Below are positions 3,268-23,134 of a stretch of DNA of 23,134 bases, in pieces. Both the position numbers and the translations under genes were made by a program. The notes beneath the pieces are model-generated. The model made no database searches. It was not told where the DNA came from and saw only the letters and a list, made by a program, of their open reading frames with translations. Origin of the DNA: a virus; IMG/VR virus record IMGVR_UViG_3300017714_000186, positions 1 through 23,134 of that record; one strand, written 5' to 3'. Within the stretch, counting starts at the first letter, position 1. Every line of letters starts with the position of its first letter.

Positions 3268-3924
3268 ATGGCTTTCTCTACGGCATCTGATGTCGAGTCA
3301 TATACTCAGATTAATTTTGATTCGAGTATAGAGACACATTTAACAAACAACTTAATACCATTCGTAGATGCAGCTATTGAACAATATGTTGGATATGTAT
3401 TATCACATGGTACTAAAACAGAAACTTTTACAGGAGACCAAACTCAAGAAATTTTCTTAAGACACTTACCTATTCGTTCAATTACTTCTGTAGTAGAAGA
3501 CGGCATTACTTTGACAGAAGGTAATGAGAGTGATTTTGTCTTTTATGGTAGTGGTAGATTGAGAAGATTAGGTAAAAGATGGTCTTACGCTAAAGAACAA
3601 AATATAGTAGTTACATACGTATCTGGATATACCGCATTTGGTGGAGGAGTCTCTACAGATTTACCAATTCAGATTAAAATGGTTTCTTCCAGAGCAGCAG
3701 CTAGATTATTAGAAAATATTTTATCGGTATCATCACAGCAAGAACCAGGTGAGATAAAAGCACAAGGTTCAACAGTAGCTGGTAATTTTAATTTAGCAAT
3801 GTCCGAAAGAATAGGGGATTATTCAGCAGATTATGGAGTAGGAACTGAAGCATTGTCTTTAGCACCTTTAACCAATGCAGATATGAATTTGTTAGCCCCC
3901 TATAGAAAGTCCTATTTTGTATAA
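3268..3924 (+). CDS. Head-tail connector adaptor (HK97 gp6-like)
   Basis: A 218-residue adaptor predicted to form the ring below the portal. It has a helical N-terminus (residues 1-45) and the family's beta block: TFTGDQTQEIFLRHLPIRSI near 52-71, SVVEDGITLTEG, the GSGRLRR turn near 94-100 and NIVVTYVSGYTAFG near 111-124. C-terminal helices (IQIKMVSSRAAARLLENIL) follow at about 133-151. The gene has the best ribosome site in the window, AGGAGGT at 3257-3263. It ends in a TAATG overlap with the next gene. Assignment rests on this strand pattern plus gene order; it is a standard component, somewhat longer than many relatives. Confidence 0.8.
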   Translation: MAFSTASDVESYTQINFDSSIETHLTNNLIPFVDAAIEQYVGYVLSHGTKTETFTGDQTQEIFLRHLPIRSITSVVEDGITLTEGNESDFVFYGSGRLRRLGKRWSYAKEQNIVVTYVSGYTAFGGGVSTDLPIQIKMVSSRAAARLLENILSVSSQQEPGEIKAQGSTVAGNFNLAMSERIGDYSADYGVGTEALSLAPLTNADMNLLAPYRKSYFV

Positions 3925-4550
3925 TGCCAAACAAGGTTACTCCCACACTAGAAGAGGCTAATCAACTCTTTAAAGATAAACCTCAATACAAATTAAAAGA
4001 CTGGGCTAAGGAGTGGGGTGTCTCAATAGAAAGAGTAAGACAAATCAAAGAACAAGCAGGTATAGTTCCTATGTCTGAAATAGATACACGTATTGTAAAT
4101 ACAATTGTTCAAAGAATAAGAAACGGTGAATCAACTCTAACCAATAGAGCTTTATATTCTGGACTACCTATTGGTTATGACAGATTTAGAACTTGGATGA
4201 TAAAAGACCCAAGCATAAAAGAAGAATGTGACTTAGCTAGAGAAGAATATTTATCATCTGATAAAACTGAAAAAAAATGTTACAAATGTGATTTAATATT
4301 TAATATAGATAATTTTAACAAAAGTCAAAAATATAATGATGGATATAACAGATACTGTAAAGATTGTCAGTCAAAAGTTATCGACGAAAATGAAGATATT
4401 AAAAGAAAAACTTGTTTTATGTGTAAAAAATCACTATCTGTTAAAAGTTTTAATAAAAATAGAGCTATGAAAGATGGGTACTCTTTGTTTTGTAAGAACT
4501 GTCAATCAAAAGAACGTAGAACCAAGAGAAGACTAAATAACATAATCTAA
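3924..4550 (+). CDS. Helix-turn-helix protein with two tandem Cys4 zinc ribbons
   Basis: A 208-residue putative DNA-binding protein. Residues 22-46 form a helix-turn-helix whose GVSIERVRQI core resembles sigma-factor region 4. Residues 50-110 hold a second helical unit similar in style to terminase-small-subunit or transposase HTH segments. Two zinc ribbons with identical spacing follow: C119-x2-C122-x22-C145-x2-C148 and C164-x2-C167-x22-C190-x2-C193, a 45-residue repeat with shared FNK, DGY and CQSK motifs. Such ribbons accompany HNH endonucleases in many phages, but no HNH nuclease motif is visible. The gene starts by TAATG overlap, has a weak ribosome site and is very A-rich, suggesting a later arrival. 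It interrupts the adaptor/closure pair. Function is unknown; regulator, packaging factor or degenerate nuclease are options. Confidence 0.7.
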   Translation: MPNKVTPTLEEANQLFKDKPQYKLKDWAKEWGVSIERVRQIKEQAGIVPMSEIDTRIVNTIVQRIRNGESTLTNRALYSGLPIGYDRFRTWMIKDPSIKEECDLAREEYLSSDKTEKKCYKCDLIFNIDNFNKSQKYNDGYNRYCKDCQSKVIDENEDIKRKTCFMCKKSLSVKSFNKNRAMKDGYSLFCKNCQSKERRTKRRLNNII

Positions 4551-4574: not shown

Positions 4575-4922
4575 ATGGCAGGCTCATATCCCGAACGTTT
4601 ATTAATACATAGAGTTACAATTCAAAGAACTACAGGTTCTAATATAGACACTCGTGGATTAGATTCAGATATTTGGTCAGATTCTAGTACTAACATACCT
4701 TGCAGATTAGAGTTTTTAAGTGAAACAGAAAATAGAGAAGGAAGAAATACAGTTATAGAAAACTGGGCAGGATATTTTAATGGTATCGTTGATTTAAAAG
4801 CTTCAGACAGAATTTACTGGAATTCAGAAAATAAGTATTTTGAAGTTTCTAGTTTAAGAAAAAGTCACAACAGAGTAGGAAGACTATTCTCAGTCACAGC
4901 TGATTTAATATATTTTGAATAA
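4575..4922 (+). CDS. Head closure protein (head-tail joining, SPP1 gp16-like)
   Basis: A 115-residue beta-rich protein. The opening LLIHRVTIQRTTG (9-21), a W at residue 34, then IPCRLEFLS (41-49) and late strands VDLKASDRIYW and YFEVSSLRKS match the phage head-tail joining family that closes the connector after packaging. The ribosome site is weak. The ATG lies 25 bases after the zinc-ribbon gene, so the intruder has separated it from its usual partner, the adaptor. It ends in a TAATG overlap with the very large next gene, implying coupled translation. Confidence 0.75.
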   Translation: MAGSYPERLLIHRVTIQRTTGSNIDTRGLDSDIWSDSSTNIPCRLEFLSETENREGRNTVIENWAGYFNGIVDLKASDRIYWNSENKYFEVSSLRKSHNRVGRLFSVTADLIYFE

Positions 4923-7900
4923 TGGCTAATTCTAGTACAAAAAAAGTTGCTAGTCAGTTTGGGGAAACTAGAGTAACAACTAAGACTATGAGTGTTTCAG
5001 AAGGTCGTAAAGATATTATTATATCTAGTAAAACTGAAGCTACAGCATTTAAAACTCTTAGGTATTACAACTGGTCTAAATCTTTTGGTATGAAGACAGA
5101 TTTTTTTAATAAACTATCTGACGGTACTTACAGCACGCTTCAAACATTAAACAATATATCTGCATTTGTAACATCTGATAGTTTAGTTCGTTCTATTGCT
5201 GCTCGTTATGGTTGGGTTGTTGCAGGTAGAGCATTTGGTAAAGTTCAGGGTAAACTTTTACCTCAAGGTGGGGGTCCTTTTGGTAGGTTTATGCGTGTTA
5301 AAGGTGGACAATTTTCAAGAAAAGTTTTAGGTGATTTTATGAATTACTTTACAACTACTGAAATGAAATTTGAGAATATAACAAAAACTCAAAGAGAAAT
5401 ATTAAAGCAATTACAAACAGCAGGAAGCATAGGTCCGACTTGGGCAGGTATGGCACTTGCTGAAGCTATTACAGGAGCACCAGACCCATTTGCTACTCAA
5501 GCAAACAAAGTAATGAAGCATGGGAGAATGGATACTCAAGATAAAGCGGCAGGATTTTCTGATGGTGAAAAAAATAAAACAGATTCTTATTTAAGTAAAA
5601 GAACCGATGTATTACAAAGAATGAGTCAATCTGGTTTAAATGCTCCAGAAATGACTTATTTAATAAAAGCTATGGAAGAAGGTGGAGACCCTGACGATAT
5701 TATGGCAAAGTATCAAAGTCTTAACGAAGATATATTTAGTTCTTTAAATAAACATAACAAGTTTAGTAAAGATTCTTCAAAACTAGTTCAAGGTAGAAGC
5801 GAAGTATATATATCAACGGGTAAAGAAATAAAAGGGGTTCAAGAGACAGAAAAATCTTTTTATATGACGGATAGCGGAACAGGTTCTCATTCAGCGTTTG
5901 ACGAAGATATTACTATGATGCAACAGAATAGAGTCAATGAAGTACTTTCTAAAGCTTTAGGTATAGATTTATATGATGGTCCTATGCAAGTATTCGAAAG
6001 TTTTTTTGGTGGTTCAAGCACACAAATGGGTCCAGATTCTTTAAAATATGGAAAAACAACTAAAACAACAAGGATGGAACAATTATATGACCAAAAAGGT
6101 AAAAGAGGAGAAAAAATTGAAGTTGTTACTGGTGGTACTTTAAAAGATAAAACAGGTGAATATTCTGATATTGATAGTCAGATGGACAGTAATAATTATA
6201 GAACTGTACGTTCCTCAAGTAATATAAAAGAAAACAACTACATAGCTTCAAGACCACAAATAATTAAAGGGTTAAGTATGATGGATGCAAAGAACATGCA
6301 TAAAAAGAATCCCAAAGGTGGTTTTTTAGTTTACGGTATTGAATTTCAATCTCATAAAAGCCTTAGAGATGTTCAACAAATAGAATATGGTGGACCAGCA
6401 ACAGACATAGGTAGAAGTTTAAAAAATAGAAGTGATAGATACATTTATGCTAGAACTATGTTTGTCCACAAAGCTGCACAAAAAGCTGCAAATAAATTAG
6501 GTATTGAAGCAGACCTAAAATTCTCCAAAAGGAGAGGAGATGTTATTGGAACTTTAGCTCAAAGAAGAACAAAAGCAATATCTAACTTTCAAAAAGATAA
6601 AAACCAAAATAATGCTAAAAATGGTGGATTCACATTAATGGTAGATAATAGAGTTAGAGAAGTTATGAAACAAGATGTAATTAGAGCTAGAGGAGCAAAA
6701 CTAAGAGATGGTAATAAAGTTAGCTTTTCTGATATGAAAGTGTCAGATGCTCCGATACAAGCAGGTAAGTATGATAGGTTTGTTAAAGGGCAAAATACCA
6801 TACAGGTTAGAGATGCTGATGGTAATATAATTACAAGAAAATTAGATGCAAAAGATTACCCACCAGAGTTTAAAAACGCCTTTGATAGATTGGAAGAAGA
6901 TTTAAAAAAGAATCTAAAACCTATAAGTGGAGACATGCCTTTATCAGATGAATACTATATATCACGAGCATATACTAAAGATGCAGCACGTAGAAGACAA
7001 ACTCAATTTTTAAGTGATGATTTAGGAACTAACGAATATGGTAATAGAAGACAATTAGACCCAACTCAGTTAAGAAGACAGAATTTTAGAGTTAAAGGTG
7101 GTGTTTGGAGTGCAGATGATATATTAGACCAAGCCTTAGAAGAAAGTGCAAAAGAATTATTTCCTCAGTATATGCGGGCATTAAGTATTGGTCAAAAAGA
7201 AATGGAAACAAGATTAGCTATAGAAGCTAATGCCAAAATGGCTGCTCTTGAAAAAGAAAAACTTAAGGGTGAAGACCTCAGAAGACGCAAGATAGAAATA
7301 GCGGACGAAATGGATGCTATGTACGAGTCAGGTTACGCAGTAGTACAAAACAGAGCTTATAACCAAGTACTTGGAAATTTAGGTCCAAATCATCCAGTCG
7401 TAAGAGAAAAATTAGAAAGTATAAATAATCAAATAGAAAATGTTATTAGAGGTTCTGGTAACAGAAGTGCAAGCCTTATGCCTTTTGCTCCTGTAGTTAT
7501 GAGGTCTAAATATATCAAATATTACAATGCCCTTATGGCTGAGAATAAAGGATTAGCTGATGAAATATTTTCTGAGATTACTAGTAATGGCAAAATCCAA
7601 TTGAGAGCTATAGAAAATCAAATAGGATTTAAAATGGAATTATTTGGTACATCTGCAAGTGGTAAGCCTATGTACAGAAGAGTTGCTCATGAACCTACAA
7701 TAATAGAACCTACTTCAAGAGAAGATATATTAAATCCAAAACCAAAATTTGAGGGTGTTGGAGATTTAAGAAACATAGAAATTTCTGGTAATGCTGGATT
7801 AAATGAAGTCAGCGGTGTTGGTGGTAATGTAAATAAAGGTAAATCAAATTTATTTGGCAATCCTACTGAACAAGATGCGATAAAAGCTTTAGGCGGAGCA

Positions 7901-8533
7901 CCAGGTGGATTAGCTAATTCAAAAACAGTTAGAGGAATAATAGGAGTAGGTGCTGGAAAAGCTAATGCTATGAAAAGTTTAAGAAATGGTAATTTTTTAT
8001 CAAATGCAGAGGATATTACTAGTGCTTTTAATGCTGTAATGGATGATGGAGAAGTTCTTAGGGCATACAAAAATTTAAGAAGTTATGTTAATGTTCACGG
8101 TCCTGCACATAAACAGACTGGAAATATTGGTGGTGGGGGTGGAGCTGGTTTTCAAGCTCTACATGATAAAAAAGGAATAGGTTCTCCTGCTTTTAAAGGT
8201 GCAGTTAGAAACTTATCAGACCAAATATTTTCAAGTGACGATAAATATCTTATGCTACATTTTATTTTGATATTTGAAAACAATGACAATGTTATAAAAG
8301 AAATTCATGACATATTTGACCCAAACTCAAGTTATGGAATGACAACTAGTGGACAAAGCACTGTAAGAGAAGGTAAATCTGTTGGAGATAGATATTTAAC
8401 TGTAGGAAGAAATAGACAAATAAATATAGCTCATATTAATAGGATGAGAGCTGAACTTAAAAATACAAGTAGCAGTCTTTTTGGTAAGGAAATGCATATG
8501 ATAGATATAATTAAAGATATGTTTTTCTTATAA
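4922..8533 (+). CDS. 1203-residue protein in the HK97 gp10 position
   Basis: A very large, basic, mostly hydrophilic protein of unknown function. By gene order it occupies the place of the HK97 gp10-like tail completion protein, normally only about 120-200 residues. A short stretch around residues 475-530 (VYGIEF, then IEYGG at 487-491, an Arg-rich region and ARTMFVHKAAQKAA) resembles the C-terminal strand/helix of that family, so a gp10-like core with large insertions is possible. Residues 780-850 are helical and charged (coiled-coil-like). A GGGGGAG hinge lies at 1070-1076, and the last 120 residues look like a separate folded domain ending in hydrophobic DIIKDMFFL. No catalytic motif was recognised. 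It could also be an ejected internal virion protein. The reading frame is intact and the composition matches its neighbours. Confidence 0.6.
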   Translation: MANSSTKKVASQFGETRVTTKTMSVSEGRKDIIISSKTEATAFKTLRYYNWSKSFGMKTDFFNKLSDGTYSTLQTLNNISAFVTSDSLVRSIAARYGWVVAGRAFGKVQGKLLPQGGGPFGRFMRVKGGQFSRKVLGDFMNYFTTTEMKFENITKTQREILKQLQTAGSIGPTWAGMALAEAITGAPDPFATQANKVMKHGRMDTQDKAAGFSDGEKNKTDSYLSKRTDVLQRMSQSGLNAPEMTYLIKAMEEGGDPDDIMAKYQSLNEDIFSSLNKHNKFSKDSSKLVQGRSEVYISTGKEIKGVQETEKSFYMTDSGTGSHSAFDEDITMMQQNRVNEVLSKALGIDLYDGPMQVFESFFGGSSTQMGPDSLKYGKTTKTTRMEQLYDQKGKRGEKIEVVTGGTLKDKTGEYSDIDSQMDSNNYRTVRSSSNIKENNYIASRPQIIKGLSMMDAKNMHKKNPKGGFLVYGIEFQSHKSLRDVQQIEYGGPATDIGRSLKNRSDRYIYARTMFVHKAAQKAANKLGIEADLKFSKRRGDVIGTLAQRRTKAISNFQKDKNQNNAKNGGFTLMVDNRVREVMKQDVIRARGAKLRDGNKVSFSDMKVSDAPIQAGKYDRFVKGQNTIQVRDADGNIITRKLDAKDYPPEFKNAFDRLEEDLKKNLKPISGDMPLSDEYYISRAYTKDAARRRQTQFLSDDLGTNEYGNRRQLDPTQLRRQNFRVKGGVWSADDILDQALEESAKELFPQYMRALSIGQKEMETRLAIEANAKMAALEKEKLKGEDLRRRKIEIADEMDAMYESGYAVVQNRAYNQVLGNLGPNHPVVREKLESINNQIENVIRGSGNRSASLMPFAPVVMRSKYIKYYNALMAENKGLADEIFSEITSNGKIQLRAIENQIGFKMELFGTSASGKPMYRRVAHEPTIIEPTSREDILNPKPKFEGVGDLRNIEISGNAGLNEVSGVGGNVNKGKSNLFGNPTEQDAIKALGGAPGGLANSKTVRGIIGVGAGKANAMKSLRNGNFLSNAEDITSAFNAVMDDGEVLRAYKNLRSYVNVHGPAHKQTGNIGGGGGAGFQALHDKKGIGSPAFKGAVRNLSDQIFSSDDKYLMLHFILIFENNDNVIKEIHDIFDPNSSYGMTTSGQSTVREGKSVGDRYLTVGRNRQINIAHINRMRAELKNTSSSLFGKEMHMIDIIKDMFFL

Positions 8534-10748: not shown

Positions 10749-13700
10749 ATGGTTAAAGACGCATCGATAAAGGTGATGCTTGAGTTCCAAGCGAACAACT
10801 CATCACTATCAAAAGCAACTAAAGGCATAGCTAACGAGCTTAGTACTCTTCAGCGTAAGACAGCAACCGTAGCATCTTCTATGACTTCTTTCGTGCCAGC
10901 ATTCGCTGCAGTTGGTGCAGCAGCATTTTCAGCTTTTTCATTTGCAGGTAGAGCAGCAGTACAATTTCAGGACTCATTCGCAGGTGTTAGAAAAACATTA
11001 AACTTTTCAGGTACTGCAGCAAAAAATCAAGAAGCAAATTTTAAAGCTTTATCAGCTTCTTTAGTTGATATCTCAAGAACAACACCTATGGCTGCAAATG
11101 AACTTGCGAGAATAGGCGAAATTGGTGGTCAGTTAGGTATATCAGCTGGTTCAATAACAAAATTTACTAAAACCATATCACAACTAACGGTAGCAACAAC
11201 TATGTCAGCAGAAGAAGCTTCTTTTGCTTTGTCAAGACTTGCAGCTATTACTAGACTACCTGAAAGAAATTTAGGTAACTTAGCTTCTGTACTTGTTAGA
11301 TTAGGTAACGAGTTTGCAGCTACTGAAGGTGAAATAGTAAATACTGCAATGAAGATTGCTTCAGCTTTAGAACTACTTGAATCACCTACTTCAAATGCAG
11401 CAGCAGACTCATTAGCTTTAGCAGCAGCATTAAAACAAGTTGGTCAGCAAACACAAGCTGGTTCTACTGCAGTTGCTAGGTCATTAGACATTATGGCTAC
11501 TGCTGTACTACAAGGTGGTAGAGAACTTTCATTATTTGCAAAAGTAGCAGGTATGACATCAGATACTTTTAGAAACCTTGCAGAAGCATCACCAGCACAA
11601 GCTTTTGTCGCATTTTTAGATGGTTTACAAGCAGTAGGTAATGCTGGTGCAGACACAGTACAGTTACTAGAAGAAGTAGGATTAGGTCAGCAAAGAACAT
11701 TAAGAGCTTTACGTTCTATGGCTTTAGCTTCAGATGATGTTAAAGCTGCTTTAAGTTCTGCTAATGAAGAGTTTGCATTAAATAATGCTTTACAGACTGA
11801 AGCAGAAAAAAGATATGAAACTGTTGTTTCACAAATGGGTATATTGAGAAATAATGTTACTGCTTTAGGTATAGAAACTGGTAATACATTACTAGGTCCT
11901 CTTAATGAAGTTGTTGATGCTTTCACAACTATAGCAGGTGGAACAACATCTCAAGATTTGCAAAACATAGCTAAAAGATTTGTAGGCATAGCATTTGCTA
12001 TGAATAGTGTAATGGTTATGAGAAAAAAAATGACTCAGTTAAACCAAGTTGCACAAGCTGGTGGTTTATCAGGAACTGGTATTGATGGGAAAATAAATTT
12101 AATAGGAGATGTATTTCCTACGGACCCATTAAAAGGAGAACTAGCACATAGAAGAAGAGCTAAAAAAATTCAAGGTCAAGGAGGTGGATTAAATCAAAGA
12201 TTTAATAAACAAGATTTTCTTGCTCAACAAGCAGCAATGGGAAGACCAACTAGGGGTTTTGATAACATTTTGCAAAATGCACAAATTCAAGGTATTGATA
12301 TGTTTGATGCTGAAGCCAACCAAGCTTTAATGGATAAGATTGGTGGGTTTACAGATACTGCACCAGAAGATGTTAGATTTTTAGGTGCAGACGGTAGTGA
12401 AAAATCACTCAGTGGTGGTGAACAGGATAGATTAGCAAATATGCAGGCTTTAAACCAAGAAGGAATAAAGCATTCTCAACAGCTAATTGATATAGAAAAT
12501 ATTGAATCCAATATAGCCGATTTAAAACAAAAAGCACTCAAGCTATCTGAACAAGCTCATGTTCTAACAAAAGATGAAGCTCAAACTAAGATGAAAGACC
12601 CAGATAAAATAAAACAAACAGTTGATGACTTAAATAGTGTTCTTGGAGATACTAAAAAAGTAGATTTTGACGACGATATTGAGGGATTTGAAAAATTACA
12701 AAAACAAGCTGTAGATTACAATATTGCATTGCAAAACCTTGATATGGCTCAAGAAAATTTAATTGACGCTGAAAAACAATTAAGCGATGCAAAAACAATA
12801 GGAAGTGGTGACTATACCAAACAAGCAAAGGCTGTACAGACTGCTCAAAATGAAGTTACCATGTTTACAGAAGCAGTAGAAGATAGTGGCAAAGAGATAA
12901 AAAAATCAGTTAAAAATTTAGATAGTAACAGTACTGCAGTAGATGCTTTAGGAAAAGATTTAGTCAATGTAGTCGAAGATTATGATAAGGTTGGAAATGC
13001 ATCAAGTAAAGTTACAAAACAACAAAAAGCTGACGCTGAAGTAGCACAAGCTTCTCTTAGCGAAACAAATGCAAAAATTAATGAACAAGAAAAAGAATTA
13101 AAACAACTTCAAGCAACTCAAGCACAAGGCGGTTTTATAACACAAAGTGTCGGTGCAGCTTCTGGTATTGCAGGAGTTGACCCTGCAAGAGATAATAATG
13201 CCTTTAGAAGTGTAGGACAAAGTATGAAATTGCTTTCTGGAAATATGACTGTATTTGGTAATGAGACTAAAAAAACAGCAGGCGTATTCAAATCTTTCTT
13301 AAGAATGTTAGGTATGACTAGAAAACAACTTTTAGCTAATAGTAGTGCTATTGTTTCATCTACTCAAGTTACAACAGGTATGAAAGTAGCAACTCAAGGT
13401 TTAACAAATGCCATGATTGGTCTAAAAGCAGCAACTATATCCTTATTGGCTTCGCTTGGAGCAATGGTTGCATTTGGTGCAATTTTTGGATACATAATGA
13501 AGCTATGGGAAAACTCTAAAAAAACTGCTGCAGCTATAAGAGAAATTGGTGATGAGATTAAAAGTGTTATAGACCTACAAGATGAATTAGTATTTAGCGA
13601 TTTACAAAAAGGATTGATAGAAGATGCTTTAGAAAATGAAATGAAAAAGAGAAGTCCAGACCAAACATTAATTAAAACATTCCAACAACAACTATCAGAC

Positions 13701-16700
13701 ATGGATGACGGTATAAATCAGGCTAAATTTAATATAGAACAAAACATGGCTGAAATTGGAAAGTCTATGATGCTTGAAACAACTGAAGATGGTGTAAATG
13801 TAGAAGCCAGATTAGAAGGAATAAATAGAGCCTTAGGTAATACTTTTGATTTAGAAGAATTTTTTGTTGAGGTAGGAAAACAGATAACTGATTTTGAAAA
13901 TGGAACTACTAATACATTATTAAGAACATTACAAAATTTAGAAGAAACCCAAGAAGAAATAGATACTTTAAGAGATGGTGGATTTACAGCTAAAACTAGC
14001 CCTAGATTAAAAGAATTAGAAGAAGAGATTGCAGTATTTGATGTGCTTAGAGATATACAAAGACAAACAGGAAGTGAATTCGAAGATTTCTTAAAAGGTA
14101 CTGGAGATGTATTTGGTATGAACTTTCAAGATACTTTCTCAGGTTCAATACTAGGTGGTGAAGGTGCTTTATCTGACAATGTATCTGGTAGTTTAGCTGA
14201 AAGATTTGGATTAAGTTTTAAAGAATTGGAAGATGGAAGTGTTGGGGTATTTCAAGCAATAGAAGAAGGCTACACAGATATGTATGGAAATATTGCAAGT
14301 GTAGCACAGGAACCAATAGCTGTACTAGCGGCTGATACTTTTGTAGATGAAGATAACAATCCAGTAGATATGGATAAAGTATTAAATGACTTATCTGCAT
14401 ACATAATTCTTGCAGAAACTCTAAGGTCTCAAGCAACTGGTAAAAAAGCTGGAAGCTTAGCTTCATCAAATTCTACTTTTATAAAAATGCAAAATGAAGG
14501 CTTAATTAAACAAATGCAATTCCTAAAAGCTAATGGTGTAATTATGCAAGATGTTGACCCATTTAAAGATAGACAAAGAGCTATTCAAATGGTGGCTAAT
14601 GCTACTAGAGTTTATCAAAAGCAACAAATAGATAAAGCTCAACAAGCAGCAGATACATTAGGAATACTTGAGTTTCAAATGAGTAAATTTGAAAAAGCTC
14701 TTAATGAAAGTCTTCAAAGGTCAGCGGGTAACTTAGCAAGTATATTTACAGAAATACCTTTAACAGTTAGAAAAGGTGTTGATGAAATGTTAAACGAAAT
14801 GATTATAAAAGAAGCTAGACTTAAAAACTTTCAAAATGATATAAAAAGACTTTCAAGCATTGCTCCAATGCTAGCTAAAAACTTAGCTGACCAGGGATTA
14901 GCTGCTAGACAAATGTTAAGTGATTTATTATCAGACCCAGTTGCAGCATTCTCAATGGAAGCCTCAATGAATAGAATTGCACCTTTCAAAGCTGAACAAT
15001 TAGGTTTAAGTGAAGAAGAAATTGAAAGAATGCAAGATGCTGGTCTTAGATTAGGTGACTCAGCTTCTGAAGGTATTATTGTAGGAATACAAAATAGACA
15101 AGCAGAACTAGAACGAGTTTTAATTAGTTCTGTACAAGGAGCAATTGACGCAACTAAATATTCAATTAAAAGCTTTAGCCCATCCAGATTAACTGCGGAA
15201 ATTCTTGGTGAACCTATTAGTCAAGGTATTGCATTAGGTATTGAAAATGAAGAAGGTAAAATTAAAGATACCATGATTAGGGTTGTAGAGAGTGCAATTG
15301 AAGAAACACAATTACTTCTAATGGAAACAAGTGAGGGAATATCTGAACTCTCAAGAGCATTAACAACTATGTTTGCAGTTACAGCTGGAAAGAGAGCATT
15401 GACTGCTGCTAATTATGGAGTGCAGAAATCCGAACAAGCTTTAATGGCAACTAGAAGAAAGAATGCAACCCTACAAGAAAGAATATCTAAAAATCAAATA
15501 GCTCTTCAAAAAGCAGAACTTGAAGGTAGAAAAAATAATATAACTATGACTGAAGAATTAAATATTCTTCAACAAAAAATTTCTATAGACGATATGAAAA
15601 GAGAAATGAGCGGCAAAAAATCTGCATCTGAAAGAAAAGCTATTGCAGATTCCGAAAAAGAATTAGAAGAATTAAGACTTGCTGCTGAAGCAGGTATTGT
15701 AGATTCATTAGATGTTGAAGTTGCGGAAGAAAAACTTGCAGAACTTAAAGGTACCAATAAATCCATTGAAGAACAACGTGTTGCAATATTGCAACTTGCA
15801 GAAGCCGAGAAAAAATTACAGGAAACAGAAAAAGAAGCTAGAGAGGTTGACGAACAACTTATTAGTTTAAGAGAAGAAAATATTAAGTTACTTGATGAAG
15901 CTGCTAATGAATCATTTGAATTACAAACTGCATATGATAATTTAGAGGCTTCAACTGAAGGAGTATTTACTGCTGAAATGAAGTATGCAGAAGCTAGAGA
16001 TAAATTTGATAAATTTGTTAAAGCATCACCTGAATTGTTCGATGCATTAATTTCAGGGTATGGTGGTGTAGGAAGCACTATCGATGCTATAAAAAATAAA
16101 ACTTTAAATTTAGTAAATAGTACTGAAACTGGTGCTGATAGAGCAGTTCTTGCATTACAAAAAATAGTTACTGAGGCTAATAAAACTGCTGCACATTTAA
16201 CATCATTAGATTTATTAGCAGATACACGTTTTGAAAGTGCATCACATGACGAAATGAAAACAAGAAACACGGTAGGTACTGCAAAAGAATTTTTAGAAAT
16301 ATTTAGAGGAACTCCTTTAGAAGGAGTTATAAACGATTTTAAAGATATGTCAGCTACAGGTGCTGGTAGAACATCAGCTATGGATAGGTCAGTATTTAAA
16401 GATATAGATGACTTTATGGCGTCAGAACAAGCACTAGAAGATGCAAGAAGTGGTAAGGATATAACTTTTAGTGATTTTGCAAGAGCCCTTCAATCATATT
16501 TAGGTGTTGCAACAAATGTTGACACAGCAGGTAACATAAACTTTGCTAATGAGCAATTAGAAGGACTAGGAATTGCTGATACAGCTACAGTTGCTCAGGC
16601 TAAAGGAGAAGTAAATGACCAAAGCTTTGGAACAGCTGTATTAGGAGCTAGTGGTGATTACTTGACTAGTGAAATGGGTGACTTATCAAGATTGGCACCT

Positions 16701-17354
16701 AATGAAAAAATAGAATACAACTATGGAATGTCTCAAGCTAGACAAGATAAATTAGGTTTTACTCCTACTACATATGACGTTACAAATAGAGATGATTTAG
16801 TAGCATTGTTTAACAGAGCTACTGGTAGCAATATAAACAGAGTAGAGGAAGTATTAGAATCTTTAGGAATGCGAGGACTACCTCAAACAACGGTAAAACC
16901 AGGACACCCAGACTTTGGTAAGAAAATAAAAGAAGATGGTTCCCTTATATCTGAAACTGATGACCATAGACATAGATACAACAGAGATAAAAATAAGAAG
17001 GGTTACAAAGATGAACTTTTAGGTAATGTTTCAAAATTATTAGATACCTTGGGAGATGGTAGATATGAATATCTATTAAAGAGAAAATATGGTGGTGGTA
17101 TGAAACCTTTCCAAAGAGCATTAGTAGGTGAGTATGGACCTGAAATGGTTACTGCTTTGCCTCAAGGTGGATTGAGAGTAACACCTCAAGGTTCTGAAAG
17201 AGGTGGTAGTATTAATGTCAATAGTTTAAATGTAAATGTAACGGGAGTACCTACTGACCCTGTACAAGCTAGAAAAGCTGCTGTACAAATTCAAAAAGCT
17301 TTGGTCAAATTAGAAAAAGAAGGTGTTTCAGGAACAGGTTTGACGAGGAGATAA
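10749..17354 (+). CDS. Tape measure protein, TP901 family
   Basis: A 2201-residue ruler protein that sets tail length; at about 1.5 angstrom per residue the tail would be near 330 nm. The N-terminal TP901 core covers about residues 70-400 (VQFQDSFAGVRKTL, ARIGEIGGQLGIS, LRSMALASDDVKAAL). A charged coiled coil lies near 560-780. A hydrophobic, possibly membrane-inserting segment is at 889-921 (LLASLGAMVAFGAIFGYIM). At about 1435-1530 two similar blocks occur, LGDSASEGIIVGIQ and LGEPISQGIALGIE, around an SPSRL motif typical of the family. A second long coiled coil spans about 1558-1755. The C-terminus has the usual LVGEYGPEMVTALPQGG motif. The gene ends in a TAATG overlap with the distal tail gene, whose AGGAG lies inside this gene. 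Confidence 0.95.
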   Translation: MVKDASIKVMLEFQANNSSLSKATKGIANELSTLQRKTATVASSMTSFVPAFAAVGAAAFSAFSFAGRAAVQFQDSFAGVRKTLNFSGTAAKNQEANFKALSASLVDISRTTPMAANELARIGEIGGQLGISAGSITKFTKTISQLTVATTMSAEEASFALSRLAAITRLPERNLGNLASVLVRLGNEFAATEGEIVNTAMKIASALELLESPTSNAAADSLALAAALKQVGQQTQAGSTAVARSLDIMATAVLQGGRELSLFAKVAGMTSDTFRNLAEASPAQAFVAFLDGLQAVGNAGADTVQLLEEVGLGQQRTLRALRSMALASDDVKAALSSANEEFALNNALQTEAEKRYETVVSQMGILRNNVTALGIETGNTLLGPLNEVVDAFTTIAGGTTSQDLQNIAKRFVGIAFAMNSVMVMRKKMTQLNQVAQAGGLSGTGIDGKINLIGDVFPTDPLKGELAHRRRAKKIQGQGGGLNQRFNKQDFLAQQAAMGRPTRGFDNILQNAQIQGIDMFDAEANQALMDKIGGFTDTAPEDVRFLGADGSEKSLSGGEQDRLANMQALNQEGIKHSQQLIDIENIESNIADLKQKALKLSEQAHVLTKDEAQTKMKDPDKIKQTVDDLNSVLGDTKKVDFDDDIEGFEKLQKQAVDYNIALQNLDMAQENLIDAEKQLSDAKTIGSGDYTKQAKAVQTAQNEVTMFTEAVEDSGKEIKKSVKNLDSNSTAVDALGKDLVNVVEDYDKVGNASSKVTKQQKADAEVAQASLSETNAKINEQEKELKQLQATQAQGGFITQSVGAASGIAGVDPARDNNAFRSVGQSMKLLSGNMTVFGNETKKTAGVFKSFLRMLGMTRKQLLANSSAIVSSTQVTTGMKVATQGLTNAMIGLKAATISLLASLGAMVAFGAIFGYIMKLWENSKKTAAAIREIGDEIKSVIDLQDELVFSDLQKGLIEDALENEMKKRSPDQTLIKTFQQQLSDMDDGINQAKFNIEQNMAEIGKSMMLETTEDGVNVEARLEGINRALGNTFDLEEFFVEVGKQITDFENGTTNTLLRTLQNLEETQEEIDTLRDGGFTAKTSPRLKELEEEIAVFDVLRDIQRQTGSEFEDFLKGTGDVFGMNFQDTFSGSILGGEGALSDNVSGSLAERFGLSFKELEDGSVGVFQAIEEGYTDMYGNIASVAQEPIAVLAADTFVDEDNNPVDMDKVLNDLSAYIILAETLRSQATGKKAGSLASSNSTFIKMQNEGLIKQMQFLKANGVIMQDVDPFKDRQRAIQMVANATRVYQKQQIDKAQQAADTLGILEFQMSKFEKALNESLQRSAGNLASIFTEIPLTVRKGVDEMLNEMIIKEARLKNFQNDIKRLSSIAPMLAKNLADQGLAARQMLSDLLSDPVAAFSMEASMNRIAPFKAEQLGLSEEEIERMQDAGLRLGDSASEGIIVGIQNRQAELERVLISSVQGAIDATKYSIKSFSPSRLTAEILGEPISQGIALGIENEEGKIKDTMIRVVESAIEETQLLLMETSEGISELSRALTTMFAVTAGKRALTAANYGVQKSEQALMATRRKNATLQERISKNQIALQKAELEGRKNNITMTEELNILQQKISIDDMKREMSGKKSASERKAIADSEKELEELRLAAEAGIVDSLDVEVAEEKLAELKGTNKSIEEQRVAILQLAEAEKKLQETEKEAREVDEQLISLREENIKLLDEAANESFELQTAYDNLEASTEGVFTAEMKYAEARDKFDKFVKASPELFDALISGYGGVGSTIDAIKNKTLNLVNSTETGADRAVLALQKIVTEANKTAAHLTSLDLLADTRFESASHDEMKTRNTVGTAKEFLEIFRGTPLEGVINDFKDMSATGAGRTSAMDRSVFKDIDDFMASEQALEDARSGKDITFSDFARALQSYLGVATNVDTAGNINFANEQLEGLGIADTATVAQAKGEVNDQSFGTAVLGASGDYLTSEMGDLSRLAPNEKIEYNYGMSQARQDKLGFTPTTYDVTNRDDLVALFNRATGSNINRVEEVLESLGMRGLPQTTVKPGHPDFGKKIKEDGSLISETDDHRHRYNRDKNKKGYKDELLGNVSKLLDTLGDGRYEYLLKRKYGGGMKPFQRALVGEYGPEMVTALPQGGLRVTPQGSERGGSINVNSLNVNVTGVPTDPVQARKAAVQIQKALVKLEKEGVSGTGLTRR

Positions 17355-18700
17355 TGGCACATAAAGTACATATTGGTAGATTATCATTTACATCACCTGG
17401 TTCTATTAACTTTGATTCTACTGACGGTGGAAGAGGATTAAGCTTTAATGGTAAAATAGGTGGTGTAGAAATAACACTTGACCACATAAAATATATAAGA
17501 GACGAGTTAGTTTCTATTGCTGCATACGGATTAACTGTACCATTTAGATATGATGGTGATTCTAGTTACGACGGGTATGTCAAAGTTAACTCTAGCTCAG
17601 TCAGTACTCAAAAATATCAACGTGGTGGTTTTAGCTATAGAGTAGATTTAGAGTATTTAGGTCGCTCAGGTGAAGTAGTATTCGAATCAAGATTTACTGG
17701 AGCTTTATTAGATAATGACCATAGTATAACAAGTACTACAAATCAGTTTCATGCAAGTCCTGGTAATCATTATAACTACTATCATCCATCAGAACCAACT
17801 GATGGTACTAGGTTATCTAAAGATGAAACTAGTACTGCTAGTGGTGCATCTACAACTTTAAGATTAAAAACAGATAATAATCTAAGAAATGCAAATGCTA
17901 CATATCACGTAGAACCTTCTGATTTTTACAAAGGTGCGTGTCTAATTAAAACTGGTACGTACGATACTGGTTTTACTTCTACAAACAACGTACAAACAAT
18001 AAGTGATACTGCTAATGAGGTAAGATGCGGTTTGTTTTCAACAAATAATCCTGGTAGTTTAACAATAGAAAATGGTTTGGTAAAAATACAATTTAGTGCT
18101 TCGACTACCCAAGCATTATTTACAAGCTATATCTATGATGTAGCAGATTATCAATCTAGCAAAGATTGGGTATTTACTAAAGGTTCACCAACAGGCTCTA
18201 ATCAATTAGCTAACAACTGGTTGGGTTGGAGAACTATGCAAATATTAAAAAATCACCCAGAATGTGCAACAGTAAGATGTACTACCTATCTTAATGCTGA
18301 TAGTAAAGATGGAAGATTAGTAGTAGATTTTACATTGCGTAGAGGTGCTCATCATGTTTCTATTGTTGCGAATCAATATACATCTAGTAGATTTAATTTA
18401 TCTTTAGCAACAGCTTCAGGAACAAATGCTTCAACAGGTACGGGATATATTTATGACGGTACTTCTAGTCCAGAAGATGGTAATAAATGGTTATTAGGAA
18501 GTCCTGATAGTGCAGCTTCATCTGCACAATTTGATGTAGCTAGAGAAATGTTATATAAAACAGGTGCACAGATGAAAGCATTTATAGGTTATGAATTAGC
18601 ACAGGAGAATGGAAGTATAAACACTGCTGATGCGAAAGACTCAGTAAGGGACCAATATTTAGATAACGTTTACGAATATCAAAAATTAGTTAAGTCATAA
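17354..18700 (+). CDS. Distal tail (Dit-like) protein with extra beta-rich domain
   Basis: A 448-residue protein directly after the tape measure, where Dit proteins sit. Residues 1-125 are beta-rich (VHIGRLSF, GVEITLDHIKYIRDEL, YDGYVKVNSSS, FSYRVDLEYLGRSG) and are the likely Dit-type ring that links tube and hub. Residues 125-430 are a Ser/Thr/Asn-rich beta domain with GRLVVDFTLRRGAHHVSIVA near 313-332; it looks like an inserted or appended surface domain, perhaps for binding host glycans. A short helical end follows (YLDNVYEYQKLVKS). The assignment as Dit is by position and strand pattern only. It overlaps the next gene by TAATG. Confidence 0.6.
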   Translation: MAHKVHIGRLSFTSPGSINFDSTDGGRGLSFNGKIGGVEITLDHIKYIRDELVSIAAYGLTVPFRYDGDSSYDGYVKVNSSSVSTQKYQRGGFSYRVDLEYLGRSGEVVFESRFTGALLDNDHSITSTTNQFHASPGNHYNYYHPSEPTDGTRLSKDETSTASGASTTLRLKTDNNLRNANATYHVEPSDFYKGACLIKTGTYDTGFTSTNNVQTISDTANEVRCGLFSTNNPGSLTIENGLVKIQFSASTTQALFTSYIYDVADYQSSKDWVFTKGSPTGSNQLANNWLGWRTMQILKNHPECATVRCTTYLNADSKDGRLVVDFTLRRGAHHVSIVANQYTSSRFNLSLATASGTNASTGTGYIYDGTSSPEDGNKWLLGSPDSAASSAQFDVAREMLYKTGAQMKAFIGYELAQENGSINTADAKDSVRDQYLDNVYEYQKLVKS

Positions 18701-19389
18701 TGTCAGTTACAGAAAAATTAATGGCTCAAGGTTCATTCAATTTACAATTGGATTATAACAAATTACCTAACTCCGTTTTAAACTCAATAGACGCTTGGGA
18801 CCAAATAGTAATAACACCATCAAGAGTTACCGAAGATGAACTTAATGATTCAGCTATGCTTACATCTTCTGAATATGTTGGTGTCGTAAAATCACTAGGT
18901 CTTGGAGATGACTCAGTAGAAATAGAAGGTGCTGGACTTGGAACATATCTAGGTGATGGAGGTAGTCGTGGTATGCCTATATCTGACCAAGGCGATATTT
19001 CTAACATGAGAAGTTTTGAAAATACATCTTTACAGTTTGTCTTAGATAATAAAGATGGAACACCTTATGGAATTTTAAGAGATGGTAGAGATGGAGGTCT
19101 TAGAAGTATTAGACCTGGAACAATAACTAACCCTACAAAAGAAAGTACTGATTTACTTTTAAATTTTGAAGGAACAGATGATAGCGTAACTACTACTGAC
19201 GCAACCTCAAAAAAACATGATATTAACTTTTACGGAAATGCTCACATAAGTACAGACCAGTCTAAATTTGGTTCTACATCTTTAGAACTAGATGGTGACA
19301 GAGATTATTTAGAAGTAGATTACTCATATCACTTTCAATTTGAGTCTGAAGACTTTACTGTTGAGTGGTGGGAGTACAGGGTTGCGTGA
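18700..19389 (+). CDS. Tail hub N-terminal part carrying half a LamG domain
   Basis: A 229-residue protein that appears to be the front piece of a split tail hub (Gp37-like/Tal type). Residues 1-85 have the hub's first beta domain (GSFNLQLDYNKLP, WDQIVITPSRV, EYVGVVKSLG, SVEIEGAGLGTYLGDG). Residues 86-147 are a linker ending near SIRPGTITNPT. Residues 150-229 are the first half of a LamG/concanavalin-like domain: LLLNFEGTDDS, KFGSTSLELDGDRDYLEVD (189-207) and EDFTVEWWEYR (217-227). It stops at the adjacent codons TGA-TAA in mid-domain; a complete LamG needs about 70-140 more residues. The missing half lies about 455 codons downstream in the same frame. Hub identity is inferred from pattern and position. 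Confidence 0.7.
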   Translation: MSVTEKLMAQGSFNLQLDYNKLPNSVLNSIDAWDQIVITPSRVTEDELNDSAMLTSSEYVGVVKSLGLGDDSVEIEGAGLGTYLGDGGSRGMPISDQGDISNMRSFENTSLQFVLDNKDGTPYGILRDGRDGGLRSIRPGTITNPTKESTDLLLNFEGTDDSVTTTDATSKKHDINFYGNAHISTDQSKFGSTSLELDGDRDYLEVDYSYHFQFESEDFTVEWWEYRVA

Positions 19390-20751
19390 TAAGTTATGCC
19401 ACAATTTGATTTAGCAAATGCAAATGTAAGCTCTAGTGGTTTTACAAATATTAAAAATAGAATAGGTTTCGTTCCGTTTGTCTATGACACGGGCTATCCA
19501 AATTTAGGTAATTACATAGATAATGACCCTGTACCAAGTGGTTCTGATATTTTTTCAGAAAGTATTGGTGGTAGAGTTCCATTTGACCCTGACTTTCATA
19601 ACGGTGTAAGAGGTAACCTAGTTGTAGGTTATGGACATACATATAGAAACGAAGGAGCTCAATGGAGAGGTTCTGATGCTTTGTTTTATGATTTTTATTC
19701 AATAAAAGAGAACGCTGGTGATTCAAATTCAACATCATTTACTATAAACAGTGTAGATTACGCATTTCCAATTCAAAAGGGAGATGTATTTGCTACAACA
19801 GATGATGGTGGTAAGTTTTTAGATGCTTCCAATAATGTTATCACTAAAGGTATAAGAATAAAATATATTGGTGATGATACTGCGAATACTAATCAAAGAT
19901 TTTCAGAATCAATTGCAAGTACTTTATTAAGTGAAGATTTGATTGGTTATAAGAATAAAGTTATAGCTGTATTTAATGGAAGCGAAGATGCTTTTCCCTA
20001 TGACAGTACACTAGCTCAACAACATTTTGATATGATGGTAGGTTTATGTTTTGCAATAGGAAAAGAAGCCTTTGAAGATACTTTCTTTGTTAATAGATAT
20101 AAATTAGTAGATGGCACATCAGTTACAAGTTCTTCAAGTTTGACTGCATACAATGATGCTGGGTACGCTTTAATGTTTCTTGGGGGTAAAGCAAAACCTA
20201 TGGACTATCCAGCTGGCGATGCTTCAAGTTCAAATAACTTATACTTAACAAACAAAGAACCAATAGTAGTAAATGGTGTAAAAGTAACTTGGGAAAATAA
20301 ATTTGTCTGGGACCCTTCTTTAATAAAACAAAGACAAGAAGACATTGATGAACTATTGGGCTCTAATAGTGTTGTTAATCCATCTGCTACTCCTTTAGAC
20401 CCAAGAACAAATTCACAGTGGTATCAAGGACCAGCAATACCTACTGATTTTTTTATGGCTAGACCAAATGCACCTGCTTGGTCTGATGTTGTAACGTCTA
20501 CATTACCTTCTGGTTCTGTAAGCAATACTATTCTCACATTACTTGCTAACGGTCAGGGAGACCAAATACCCCTCTACTACACAGGAGATGCGTCAATTTA
20601 TGCAACAAATCCAGGTAATGAAAATTATTGGGAAGAAGACCCGTTTTATCAAAAAGCTTTTTCTGCCTTCTGGCAAATAAATAATAGGTGGTATAAAGGA
20701 AACCAAACATTTATTGCACCTAGACCTAAGACAACTAATGGACCAGCTGTA
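19387..20751 (+). other. Inserted coding segment that splits the LamG domain
   Basis: The first half of LamG ends with EYRVA (to 19386) and the second half resumes with AQGDGSVPPYIFG (from about 20755). Removing roughly 19387-20751 (about 1365 bases, a multiple of three) would join them in frame at a shared V-A. The segment contains the stop pair TGA-TAA, the new ATG, a lysozyme-like domain and a linker. No direct repeats, transposase or recognisable intron core were seen at its ends, so its mobility, if any, is unknown. Boundaries are uncertain by several codons. Confidence 0.6.
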
Positions 20752-23134
20752 GCTGCACAAGGTGATGGCTCGGTACCTCCTTATATTTTTGGTTTGAATG
20801 ATGGCTCTGGAGAACTAGGAGTATATATAACTAGTACTAGAGCAGAGAGTACCATTGATGGTATTACAGGAATAGACAGTACAATCTGGGACATTGCTGA
20901 TGGTATAAAACTAGGTGATGTTTCTAATGGTCAATGGGTACATAGAGCAATAACTAGAAAAGGTAATAAATTTACAACATGGGAAAACGGTACTTTAGTT
21001 TCTCAATGGAATTCTGATAAGACTATTAAGAGAGTCACTAGAGATGCAAAATCTAGTGGTAGCGATGAAAAAGCATCTATGAATCTTTCTATAGGAAGGA
21101 GTCAACATGCGGATTACTTTAAAGGGTATATAGATGGATTAAAAATAACTAAAGGTGAAGCTTCCTATGATGCTAACTTCACACCTTCTTCATCTGCTCC
21201 AACAGTTGAAAATACATCAAATAGTTATACAGGTCTACACAATGTTGAATCTGTGTATAACGCTTTAAAAAAAATAATGTCTCAAATGGATACAGAATAT
21301 AAAGTTACTAATCAAGGAAAGATTGATTCAGGACCTAGAGAAAATTTATTTGTAGGTCATGGAACAAATGACCCTTTAGCAATTATTGTAAGAGATTCTT
21401 CTGGTGAAGACCCAGGTATTATTGGTTTAAACCCTGATGCTTTAACTACTCAGTTTGAAGCAGAAGATTGGGTTTCTGGTGTCGAATACTTAAAGAATGT
21501 TGGTTCTGATGGTCAAAATATTGATTTAGTAGAAAGATTTTTAACAGACATACCTTATTATGATTTATTTGGTAATCCTTTAGAAAGAGTTGCATATGTT
21601 AACGAACAGGATACAAATGCTCTCATGGCACCCAAAAGAGCAGAAGCTTATTTAGAAGAGTTTACAAGAGTCAAAAAATCATTATCACTATCTTTAGAAT
21701 ACTATGACATTAAAGGAGATTTTGAAGTAGGGGATAATATATTTGTTTATGACCCTGAAGTAGGTTTTGTCGATGATTTAACAAAAGCAATTGCTGATGG
21801 TAGAACAGAACCTTATGAAGCTATTTGGCAAGGTCAATATATTAATCCTGAAAAAATAAGAATTATTGGAATTACTTATCCTATCGAAGATAGCTTTGGA
21901 GTTTATCTAAGGAAGGTAGTTAATAAGAATCCATACACAGTGAAATATATAGATTTAACTGATTATATGATTTTCGAAACAGGTAATACTTCACTTGATG
22001 TCGGAGATTTAGGAAAACAGATTGGAGATGATTTAAGATTTTCTAATCAACTATCTGGTACGACTACAGGTAGAACAGAATACAAACCTGGAAAAGTTAT
22101 TGACCCTGATAATTTGAGTGCAGAAGGTATTAGAACTACATCTAGTTTTTATACTGATGCTTTAGGAACTCAACAATCTATTATTTTTATAGAGTGGAAA
22201 GCTCCAAGAAATACTAGTGGTACTGTTATTGAAAATGGACTTCACTATGAAGTAACTGTTGAGCCAACTAATCCTGCATTAGGGGACGCTACAAGATACT
22301 TTGTACAATGGGGTAACGAAACATTTACTGTTGAAGGTTTACAAAAAGCTACTGATTACAAGGTTGGTGTCCAAGCAGTAACTACAGGTGCAGCTTCTGG
22401 ATTTGTATATGAAACAATTACAACTGCAGTTGATACTGCAAAACCTAATAAACCAGCACAAGCTACAACTATTGCAACAATACAGGGTGCAGTACAAGTA
22501 ATACACCATTTAGGTAGAGCTACAGATAATTCAGGTAATCCAGTAGGTACAGTAGTCAACTTCACATTACCTTCTGATTTATCTTACTTAAATGTTTATG
22601 GTTCTACTACTTCTGGTTTTACTGTTGGAGAATCAACTAAATTAGGAAATATACCATGTGATGCTTCCTTTTTAAGATTAAGCATTCCAGCAGTAGCAAC
22701 ATTAAAAGGTGAATCTTTAGATAGCTCTGCGACTATGTTTTTTAGATTTACTGCAGTAGATAATGCTGGTAATGAATCAGACCCTTCTGACCAACAGACT
22801 GGTAATGCAGACTTAGTTAAAACTGCAAATATTGATGATGCAGCTATCACTACTGCGAAAATACAAAACTTAGCAGTAGGAACAGCAAAGATTGCTGATG
22901 CTGCAATATCTAATGCAAAAATTTCTGACACAATAGAATCTGATAATTACTCAACAGGTACATCTGGTTGGACTATCAAAAAAAACGCAGCAGGTTTTCC
23001 AAATGGTTTTATAGAAATAAGTGATGCAGTAATAAGAGGTAACATAACTGCAACTACAGGAAATATTGGTGGATGGTCTATAGCTAGTAATAAATTAACA
23101 GCAGGTAATTTAGAATTAGATGCTGGTAATACAA
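19396..23134 (+). CDS. Tail tip protein: lysozyme-like domain, second LamG half, hub, FN3-like repeats (partial)
   Basis: An ORF of at least 1246 codons, open at the right edge. Residues 16-320 resemble a GH24 lysozyme: FVPFVYDTG (25-33), VVGYGHTY (76-83), FSESIASTLLSEDLIGYKNKV (169-189), LAQQHFDMMVGLCFAIGKEAF (206-226) and LIKQRQEDIDELL near 309-321. Residues 322-452 are unassigned. Residues 456-600 are a LamG second half (WVHRAITRKGNKF near 514, YFKGYIDGLKI near 574). Residues 605-900 look like the rest of a Gp37-like hub (VESVYNALKKI, VGDNIFVYDPEVG near 778). Two FN3-like units cover about 920-1130, then IDDAAITTAKI-type repeats (1146-1176) and a GNIGGWSI tip motif. The ribosome site is weak (AGGG 14 bases upstream), so translation probably restarts after the upstream stop. 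It should act at the tail tip in wall penetration and adsorption. Confidence 0.72.
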   Translation, partial: MPQFDLANANVSSSGFTNIKNRIGFVPFVYDTGYPNLGNYIDNDPVPSGSDIFSESIGGRVPFDPDFHNGVRGNLVVGYGHTYRNEGAQWRGSDALFYDFYSIKENAGDSNSTSFTINSVDYAFPIQKGDVFATTDDGGKFLDASNNVITKGIRIKYIGDDTANTNQRFSESIASTLLSEDLIGYKNKVIAVFNGSEDAFPYDSTLAQQHFDMMVGLCFAIGKEAFEDTFFVNRYKLVDGTSVTSSSSLTAYNDAGYALMFLGGKAKPMDYPAGDASSSNNLYLTNKEPIVVNGVKVTWENKFVWDPSLIKQRQEDIDELLGSNSVVNPSATPLDPRTNSQWYQGPAIPTDFFMARPNAPAWSDVVTSTLPSGSVSNTILTLLANGQGDQIPLYYTGDASIYATNPGNENYWEEDPFYQKAFSAFWQINNRWYKGNQTFIAPRPKTTNGPAVAAQGDGSVPPYIFGLNDGSGELGVYITSTRAESTIDGITGIDSTIWDIADGIKLGDVSNGQWVHRAITRKGNKFTTWENGTLVSQWNSDKTIKRVTRDAKSSGSDEKASMNLSIGRSQHADYFKGYIDGLKITKGEASYDANFTPSSSAPTVENTSNSYTGLHNVESVYNALKKIMSQMDTEYKVTNQGKIDSGPRENLFVGHGTNDPLAIIVRDSSGEDPGIIGLNPDALTTQFEAEDWVSGVEYLKNVGSDGQNIDLVERFLTDIPYYDLFGNPLERVAYVNEQDTNALMAPKRAEAYLEEFTRVKKSLSLSLEYYDIKGDFEVGDNIFVYDPEVGFVDDLTKAIADGRTEPYEAIWQGQYINPEKIRIIGITYPIEDSFGVYLRKVVNKNPYTVKYIDLTDYMIFETGNTSLDVGDLGKQIGDDLRFSNQLSGTTTGRTEYKPGKVIDPDNLSAEGIRTTSSFYTDALGTQQSIIFIEWKAPRNTSGTVIENGLHYEVTVEPTNPALGDATRYFVQWGNETFTVEGLQKATDYKVGVQAVTTGAASGFVYETITTAVDTAKPNKPAQATTIATIQGAVQVIHHLGRATDNSGNPVGTVVNFTLPSDLSYLNVYGSTTSGFTVGESTKLGNIPCDASFLRLSIPAVATLKGESLDSSATMFFRFTAVDNAGNESDPSDQQTGNADLVKTANIDDAAITTAKIQNLAVGTAKIADAAISNAKISDTIESDNYSTGTSGWTIKKNAAGFPNGFIEISDAVIRGNITATTGNIGGWSIASNKLTAGNLELDAGNT

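Follow-up and report, generated by a model that had tools for sequence, protein, structure and literature searches.

A putative viral tail hub encoded by two genes that meet inside a LamG domain

Results

A virus sequence of 23,134 nucleotides (IMG/VR record IMGVR_UViG_3300017714_000186, positions 1 to 23,134; this whole stretch is called the window) encodes a putative tail hub in two consecutive open reading frames (ORFs) that meet within a single LamG domain. The first, P1 (18700-19389, 229 amino acids), carries the N-terminal hub part (hub N) and the beginning of LamG; its closing residues, ...EDFTVEWWEYRVA, are followed by TGA TAA GTT ATG. The second, P2 (19396-23133, 1246 amino acids), runs past the end of the record without reaching a stop and carries a lysozyme-like inserted segment, the remainder of LamG and the C-terminal hub part (hub C). 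The two LamG parts are complementary, relatives with an uninterrupted gene exist, the break is monophyletic and upheld, and the LamG part of P1 is under purifying selection. Most likely, P1 and P2 jointly rebuild LamG and hub in trans. We give a probability of roughly 0.8 to the whole explanation, which comprises a history of two insertions, translation as two proteins and co-assembly.

The LamG parts of P1 and P2 are complementary

A profile of 227 positions was built from the uninterrupted LamG domains of relatives and run over the 27 P1 and 27 P2 proteins of split hubs. In the window, P1 residues 149-228 correspond to profile positions 5-85 (60.4 bits) and P2 residues 446-606 to positions 87-223 (70.6 bits), without overlap. 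All 27 P1 matches are confined to positions 4-86 and end at 84-86. Among the P2 proteins, 26 of 27 match from position 81 onward only, reaching 211-225; the sole one without a match, at locus L067 (loci are numbered with the prefix L), is truncated where its contig ends. For 11 P2 proteins, including that of the window, the first matched position lies at 81-87, directly at the break. PHROG_24074 is likewise divided in a complementary manner, with P1 covering 413-492 and the P2 part 543-648. Since the parts complement each other, two full LamG domains are excluded. An earlier reading of the window, made from its sequence alone, had claimed that P1 stops within a LamG fold and that P2 holds the missing part, and both claims are borne out.

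The search of each ORF with PF13385 (Laminin_G_3), which the same sequence-only reading had proposed, succeeded in part: P2 gave 26.9 bits, just under the cut-off of 27.6, and P1 had no Pfam match, PF13385 included. Three relatives with uninterrupted LamG scored 51.7-62 bits, L053 with 62.0 bits over profile positions 3-140 of 151. Judged by these profiles, the window belongs to LamG/PF13385 only when both parts are taken jointly. Carbohydrate binding by this LamG is a prediction.

Relatives display three architectures

Using P1, hub C and the inserted segment as well as profiles of them, we scanned viral contigs and obtained 85 hub-bearing ones, the window included. L074 and L101 end too early for classing, and the remaining 83 each show one of three architectures. 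Hub N and hub C share one ORF without LamG in 33 contigs; they share one ORF with about 228 residues between them in 23; and the hub is split in 27, the window among them. The insert of about 228 residues is LamG, as the motif EW(W/Y)EYR occurs in 23 of 23 with the remainder continuing in frame. Relatives with an uninterrupted gene, which had been proposed as a check, thus number 56, and with them the possibility that both proteins were separate ancestrally, with no fused form, is not borne out.

The same 56 single ORFs agree with the earlier view that the two flanking parts are front and back of one hub. Its label Gp37-like found no support, as PF14594 had no match at E ≤ 1 in the window or in the relatives searched. 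On L053, PF06605 scored 11.5 bits, below cut-off. The gene order of tape measure, ORF in the position of the distal tail protein (Dit) and hub, seen in the window and its relatives, fits a hub of the Tal/gp27 type, the Dit label being positional.

Among named phages, the LamG-less hub had no match. P2 matched 82 records, the best 40 of the 82 in the fibronectin type III (fn3)/tail-tip region, and P1 matched 250, the best 40 of the 250 in its LamG part. Capsid matches occurred in 969 records, all below 60% identity, with 36% as the best of 15 listed. When the hub C profile was used to scan bacterial and archaeal genomes, it gave 105 pattern-matching stretches and no relative. These scans thus place the hub solely in virus contigs of metagenomes, and they yielded no isolate that carries it.

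Two variations in length were seen on the relatives. In L027 (8001-13394, on a contig shared with L069), P2 has 1797 amino acids and appears to have absorbed the next tail gene, a separate ORF in L002-L005 and L015-L018. Ten uninterrupted-LamG hubs (L166, L167, L171-L176, L181 and L184) have 997-999 amino acids, compared with 1381-1553 in complete ones, and a differing tail end.

P1 and P2 are separate reading frames at every junction

Each of the 27 junctions consists of a stop/ATG pair with a gap of -1 (a 1-nucleotide overlap) to +8 nucleotides, and every P2 begins with MPQF. The break is present in 26 contigs besides the window, several of them near-duplicates, and is therefore not an assembly slip. 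P1 and P2 stand in frame relations 0, 1 and 2 in 4, 15 and 8 contigs, respectively. As all three relations occur, neither readthrough nor one conserved frameshift accounts for the break. A Shine-Dalgarno sequence, judged by eye only, is strong at L003-type junctions and not in the window. The close spacing suggests that translation of P1 and P2 may be coupled.

An intron, an intein or recoding that rejoins one chain was considered and rejected, given the three frame relations, 23 of 27 contigs being out of frame, and no match to an Rfam RNA family at window positions 18500-21500; no intein family was among the Pfam hits of the window. It is hardly credible, then, that one long protein arises by stop readthrough, frameshift or splicing at the junction. 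The shared frame in the window, L001, L002 and L068 would suit such a protein, but the prevalence of both other relations, the invariant MPQF start, the two consecutive stops in the window and the Rfam result all oppose it.

The inserted segment is lysozyme-like and has probably lost catalysis in part of the split hubs

The lysozyme family PF00959, searched against the first 455 amino acids of P2, matches the inserted segment of the window weakly (amino acids 148-254, 20.2 bits, under the cut-off of 22.3). Of 16 records searched with it, 9 had a single match each; these 9 carry split hubs, and the matching open frames are as long as P2. Only one of the 16, that of L018, was above cut-off (24 bits). 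The records without a match comprise the 4 with unsplit hubs and 3 of the 12 with split hubs. A 10-row profile of the segment hit lysozyme 6h9d_A, again weakly (E 5.6e-4 for the whole chain, 0.019 for the best single stretch). Foldseek matched the model to lysozymes 7m5i_B and 6h9d_A with probability 1.00.

A scan with the segment profile found 26 loci, all on the 26 further split contigs. Among loci L032-L213 there was no lysozyme-profile ORF without hub C, barring L067/L201, one contig that ends there. None of 49 stretches matching the two patterns of the segment was a free-standing relative, although lysozymes lacking those peptides would escape such a search.

For the catalytic positions of glycoside hydrolase family 24 (GH24) we take E11, D20 and T26 of T4 lysozyme. 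By residue comparison, the window has I, T and V there. The 12 contigs of its clade carry replacements at all three (I or V; T or S; V) and have an Asp one place ahead of the catalytic D position. The catalytic E, D and T are retained in 14 of the 27 split contigs, and L091, from another clade, has V, D and R. The earlier claim of a lysozyme segment is thus upheld as homology, weak in the window itself, and not as regards the catalytic E, D and T. Probably, lysozyme catalysis was lost at least twice, and the module of the window is likely a pseudo-enzyme. The positions concerned lie at 19459-19641 in the window and in the same region of L091, and both clades retain the module.

Structure models fit one LamG made of two parts

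The window was modelled with AlphaFold2 as a single read-through chain (18700-22098, 38-row alignment). Its LamG regions came out better than the chain as a whole, with ten-residue means of pLDDT (predicted local distance difference test) of 78-91 over residues 151-230 and of 65-95 over 661-840, except for 39 at 781-790; most of hub C was poorly modelled. VIA-align placed model residues 146..831 on AbnA domain 4 (5hon_A) with Z 19.2, a root-mean-square deviation of 2.9 and 198 of 206 residues aligned. These 198 residues are more than either LamG part alone contains. The uninterrupted L053 (mean pLDDT 73.6, predicted TM-score 0.59) gave a similar picture, its residues 145..359 aligning on 5hon_A with Z 20.4 and 194 residues. 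The models are compatible with one complete LamG beta-sandwich formed from both parts, the inserted segment being looped out.

The Foldseek and VIA lists consist mostly of concanavalin A (ConA)-like lectin domains, which come from many proteins and include toxin binding domains; such matches indicate a shared fold only, not toxicity. In a BFVD search, LamG-type proteins were prominent. Foldseek also listed two tail chains, namely 9m7n_A (Tal of phage NF5, E 1.2e-3, probability 1.00) and 3cdd_D (MuSo2 tail protein, E 5.6e-3, probability 0.98).

Origin and assembly of the split hub

We propose that LamG was first gained by an ancestral single tail-hub gene of the Tal/gp27 type, in which it came to separate the N part from the C part. 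Next, a GH24-type lysozyme-like segment would have been inserted, together with a stop and a new ATG, into the LamG loop that follows the strand FTVEWWEYR. P1 and P2 would be made consecutively, by closely spaced and probably coupled translation, and P1 (hub N and the first LamG strands) would co-fold with P2 (the remainder) into one LamG and one hub. LamG would thereby serve as a non-covalent joint, with the lysozyme-like module beside it at the free N-terminus of P2. The placement of P1 and P2 in the virion and a wall-directed function of the module are likewise predictions.

Several observations weigh against this proposal. The read-through model is weak overall (mean pLDDT 61.7, predicted TM-score 0.36); it treats P1 and P2 as a single chain joined by a read-through linker and does not predict a complex of two chains, and four uninterrupted-LamG rows in its alignment bias it toward one LamG. 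TM-scores of the hub-fold matches are low by target (0.18 for 9m7n_A, 0.25 for 3cdd_D), PDB searches with hub C profiles gave no relevant relative, and phmmer with the L069 segment alone matched no lysozyme. In 15 of the 26 P2 matches to the intact-LamG profile, the alignment starts only at 120-134 and leaves positions just past the break unmatched; the stretch in between is too diverged for alignment in these proteins. Several of the 27 split contigs are near-copies (L003 and L004 differ at 24 positions), so the independent number is below 27. Finally, in the best hub tree the split hubs are sisters of the LamG-less ones (97/88), and the tree program warned of long outgroup branches.

That tree comprises 52 hubs (19 split, 14 uninterrupted-LamG, 12 LamG-less and 7 distant outgroup rows) and was computed under the simpler LG+G4 model. 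Support is 100/100 for the split clade, 100/100 for the uninterrupted-LamG clade and 100/99 for the LamG-less clade. The groups were arranged identically, though less well supported (72.5/89), in an earlier tree of 47 rows, 22 of them split. The sister grouping would suit a history in which LamG entered twice at the same site, the split hub perhaps gaining LamG and lysozyme together and never having been uninterrupted. We regard this as rather unlikely. A clade of split and uninterrupted-LamG hubs is not rejected (approximately unbiased test, p 0.13); the 27 hub LamGs used form one clade against 19 other LamGs (98/93), which come from 9 records of named phages and from 2 mutually identical IMG/VR loci; and in alignment A6 the insertion lies at the same site with matching flanks across hubs. 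A double gain concerns history only and is compatible with co-assembly.

Since fused forms exist and the lysozyme segment was encountered in split hubs alone, hub, then LamG, then lysozyme is the simplest reading of the history. This order, suggested by the sequence-only reading, largely stands; the trees do not decide between a single and a double LamG gain, and there may have been one gain plus a loss, or two gains. The opposite direction, from an ancestral split hub to uninterrupted-LamG hubs by exact loss of the lysozyme segment, is very improbable. Change counts on the tree cannot separate gain from loss, but such a path demands exact excision plus restoration of the frame, and the distant hubs L059, L107-109, L182, L183, L185 and L186 each occupy one ORF that has neither LamG nor lysozyme.

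It might also be asked whether P1 has become a stand-alone adaptor with a relic LamG, P2 alone being the working hub with a partial lectin fold. The ORFs are indeed separate, each with its own stop and start, and P2 holds more of LamG than P1 does and also has the tail-tip domains. Ratios of nonsynonymous to synonymous substitution rates (dN/dS) in the LamG part of P1 argue otherwise: they were 0.046, 0.039, 0.101, 0.274 and 0.289 in five pairs, dS being saturated in two further pairs, and 0.03-0.25 in other segments. These values point to purifying selection that maintains the P1 part, which is hard to explain without a partner. Together with the uniform end of this part at profile positions 84-86 and the shared ORF of hub N and hub C in the unbroken relatives, this makes two independent proteins improbable, and co-assembly of P1 and P2 remains our preferred explanation.

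Other features of the window

Coordinates are collected in Table 1. The ORF in the Dit position had no Pfam match and no PHROG match below E 0.07. A search of NCBIfam gave no match above cut-off. Outside the tail module, an ORF of 208 amino acids at 3924-4550, among head-tail connector genes, has two stretches matching endonuclease VII, HNH and Lar-like families; a nuclease-like gene may have intruded into the structural module here. An ORF of 1203 amino acids at 4922-8533, between connector-type genes, had no match in Pfam (E ≤ 1) or PHROG (E ≤ 0.1).

Table 1. Tail genes of the window and the parts of the split hub
Feature	Position	Strand	Basis
Tape measure-like ORF, 2201 aa (putative)	10749..17354	+	Length and place in tail module
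ORF, 448 aa, in Dit slot (putative)	17354..18700	+	Position alone
P1: hub N part and N-terminal LamG part, stop TGA	18700..19389	+	ORF and profile match
Hub N part (alignment A2)	18700..19134	+	Same ORF as hub C in 56 unbroken relatives
LamG N-terminal part, P1 aa 149-228	19144..19383	+	Intact-LamG profile; PHROG_24074
Junction TGA TAA GTT ATG: P1 stop, second stop, P2 start, single frame	19387..19398	+	
P2: lysozyme-like segment, LamG C-terminal part, hub C, fn3, tail-tip; open-ended	19396..23134	+	
Inserted segment, ~445 aa, with GH24 lysozyme-like region	19396..20730	+	PF00959, profiles, Foldseek
LamG C-terminal part, P2 aa 446-606	20731..21213	+	Intact-LamG profile; PF13385
Hub C part (alignment A1)	21229..22098	+	Same ORF as hub N in 56 relatives
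Fibronectin type III domain, P2 aa 926-998	22171..22389	+	PF00041, 32.1 bits
Phage_Tail_Tip region, P2 aa 1162-1223	22879..23064	+	PF09327, 29.5 bits

Discussion

The hubs described here form a natural series in a core part of the virion, from one gene, to one gene with a lectin domain, to two genes broken within that domain. Domain insertion can evidently lead to gene fission, which is then upheld over long divergence. The system makes the tolerance of a tail hub to a chain break testable, and its naturally split beta-sandwich pair could be used for protein complementation. Repeated loss of catalytic positions suggests that the inserted module can be kept for structure or binding, not for catalysis.

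One may speculate that the two-chain lectin is a breaking point, which clamps the hub until a ligand parts LamG and frees the P2 half. We hold this to be a long shot. If true, the lysozyme-derived module of P2, probably inactive in the clade of the window, would serve to open the tail or to attach to the wall, and the tail hub would contain a naturally evolved two-chain lectin switch.

No tail hub broken inside a domain was found in the literature, which is weak evidence, as subscription journals were mostly uncovered; the available portions of PMC12494034, PMC7504290 and PMC13252515 describe no split hub. What seems new, on this weak evidence, is a break inside one domain in the presence of uninterrupted one-gene relatives. 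The sequence-only reading knew of no tail hub described as reassembling in trans from two polypeptides. At the level of whole domains this is contradicted by RcGTA, a gene transfer agent, in the text available of PMC7296036; for a break within a domain no precedent was found.

LamG domains of the same type occur in S-SKS1, ACG-2014f, P-SSM4 and other phages; database searches with the LamG part of P1 and with the uninterrupted hub LamG gave these as best matches. In each of the 19 rows of such LamGs the match lies within one frame, and the rows group apart from the hub LamGs.

Evolved Dit and Tal proteins have carbohydrate-binding modules, in the case of Tal inserted in the gp27-like domain (PMC7291167, in the portion available), as our 23 uninterrupted-LamG relatives have. 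That portion describes no chain break, whereas the inserted module of the window is itself interrupted.

The tail hub of phage T4 (gp27 with gp5) likewise has a lysozyme domain attached to it, and gp5*-gp5C is a two-chain complex (PMC7650644, in the portion available). As far as that text goes, the putative hub of the window, with its lysozyme-like segment and two chains, would be similar. The chain break of gp5 is made by proteolysis. It does not lie in a lectin domain, and the gp5 lysozyme is active, whereas the catalytic positions of the window are replaced.

The closest parallel to two polypeptides is RcGTA, where, according to the portion available of PMC7296036, the parts of T4 gp27 reside on two mutually binding polypeptides, hub g13 and megatron g15, the attachment domain (residues 1-142) on the hub and the central domain on the megatron. 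With the peptidase numbered g14, a wall hydrolase stands, in the numbering, between the two hub-part proteins, just as the lysozyme-like segment does here. As described in that text, however, the break of RcGTA falls between domains, whereas that of the window falls inside one beta-sandwich domain; the hydrolase-like module of the window is fused to the second protein, and its one-ORF relatives show that the split hub had a separate origin.

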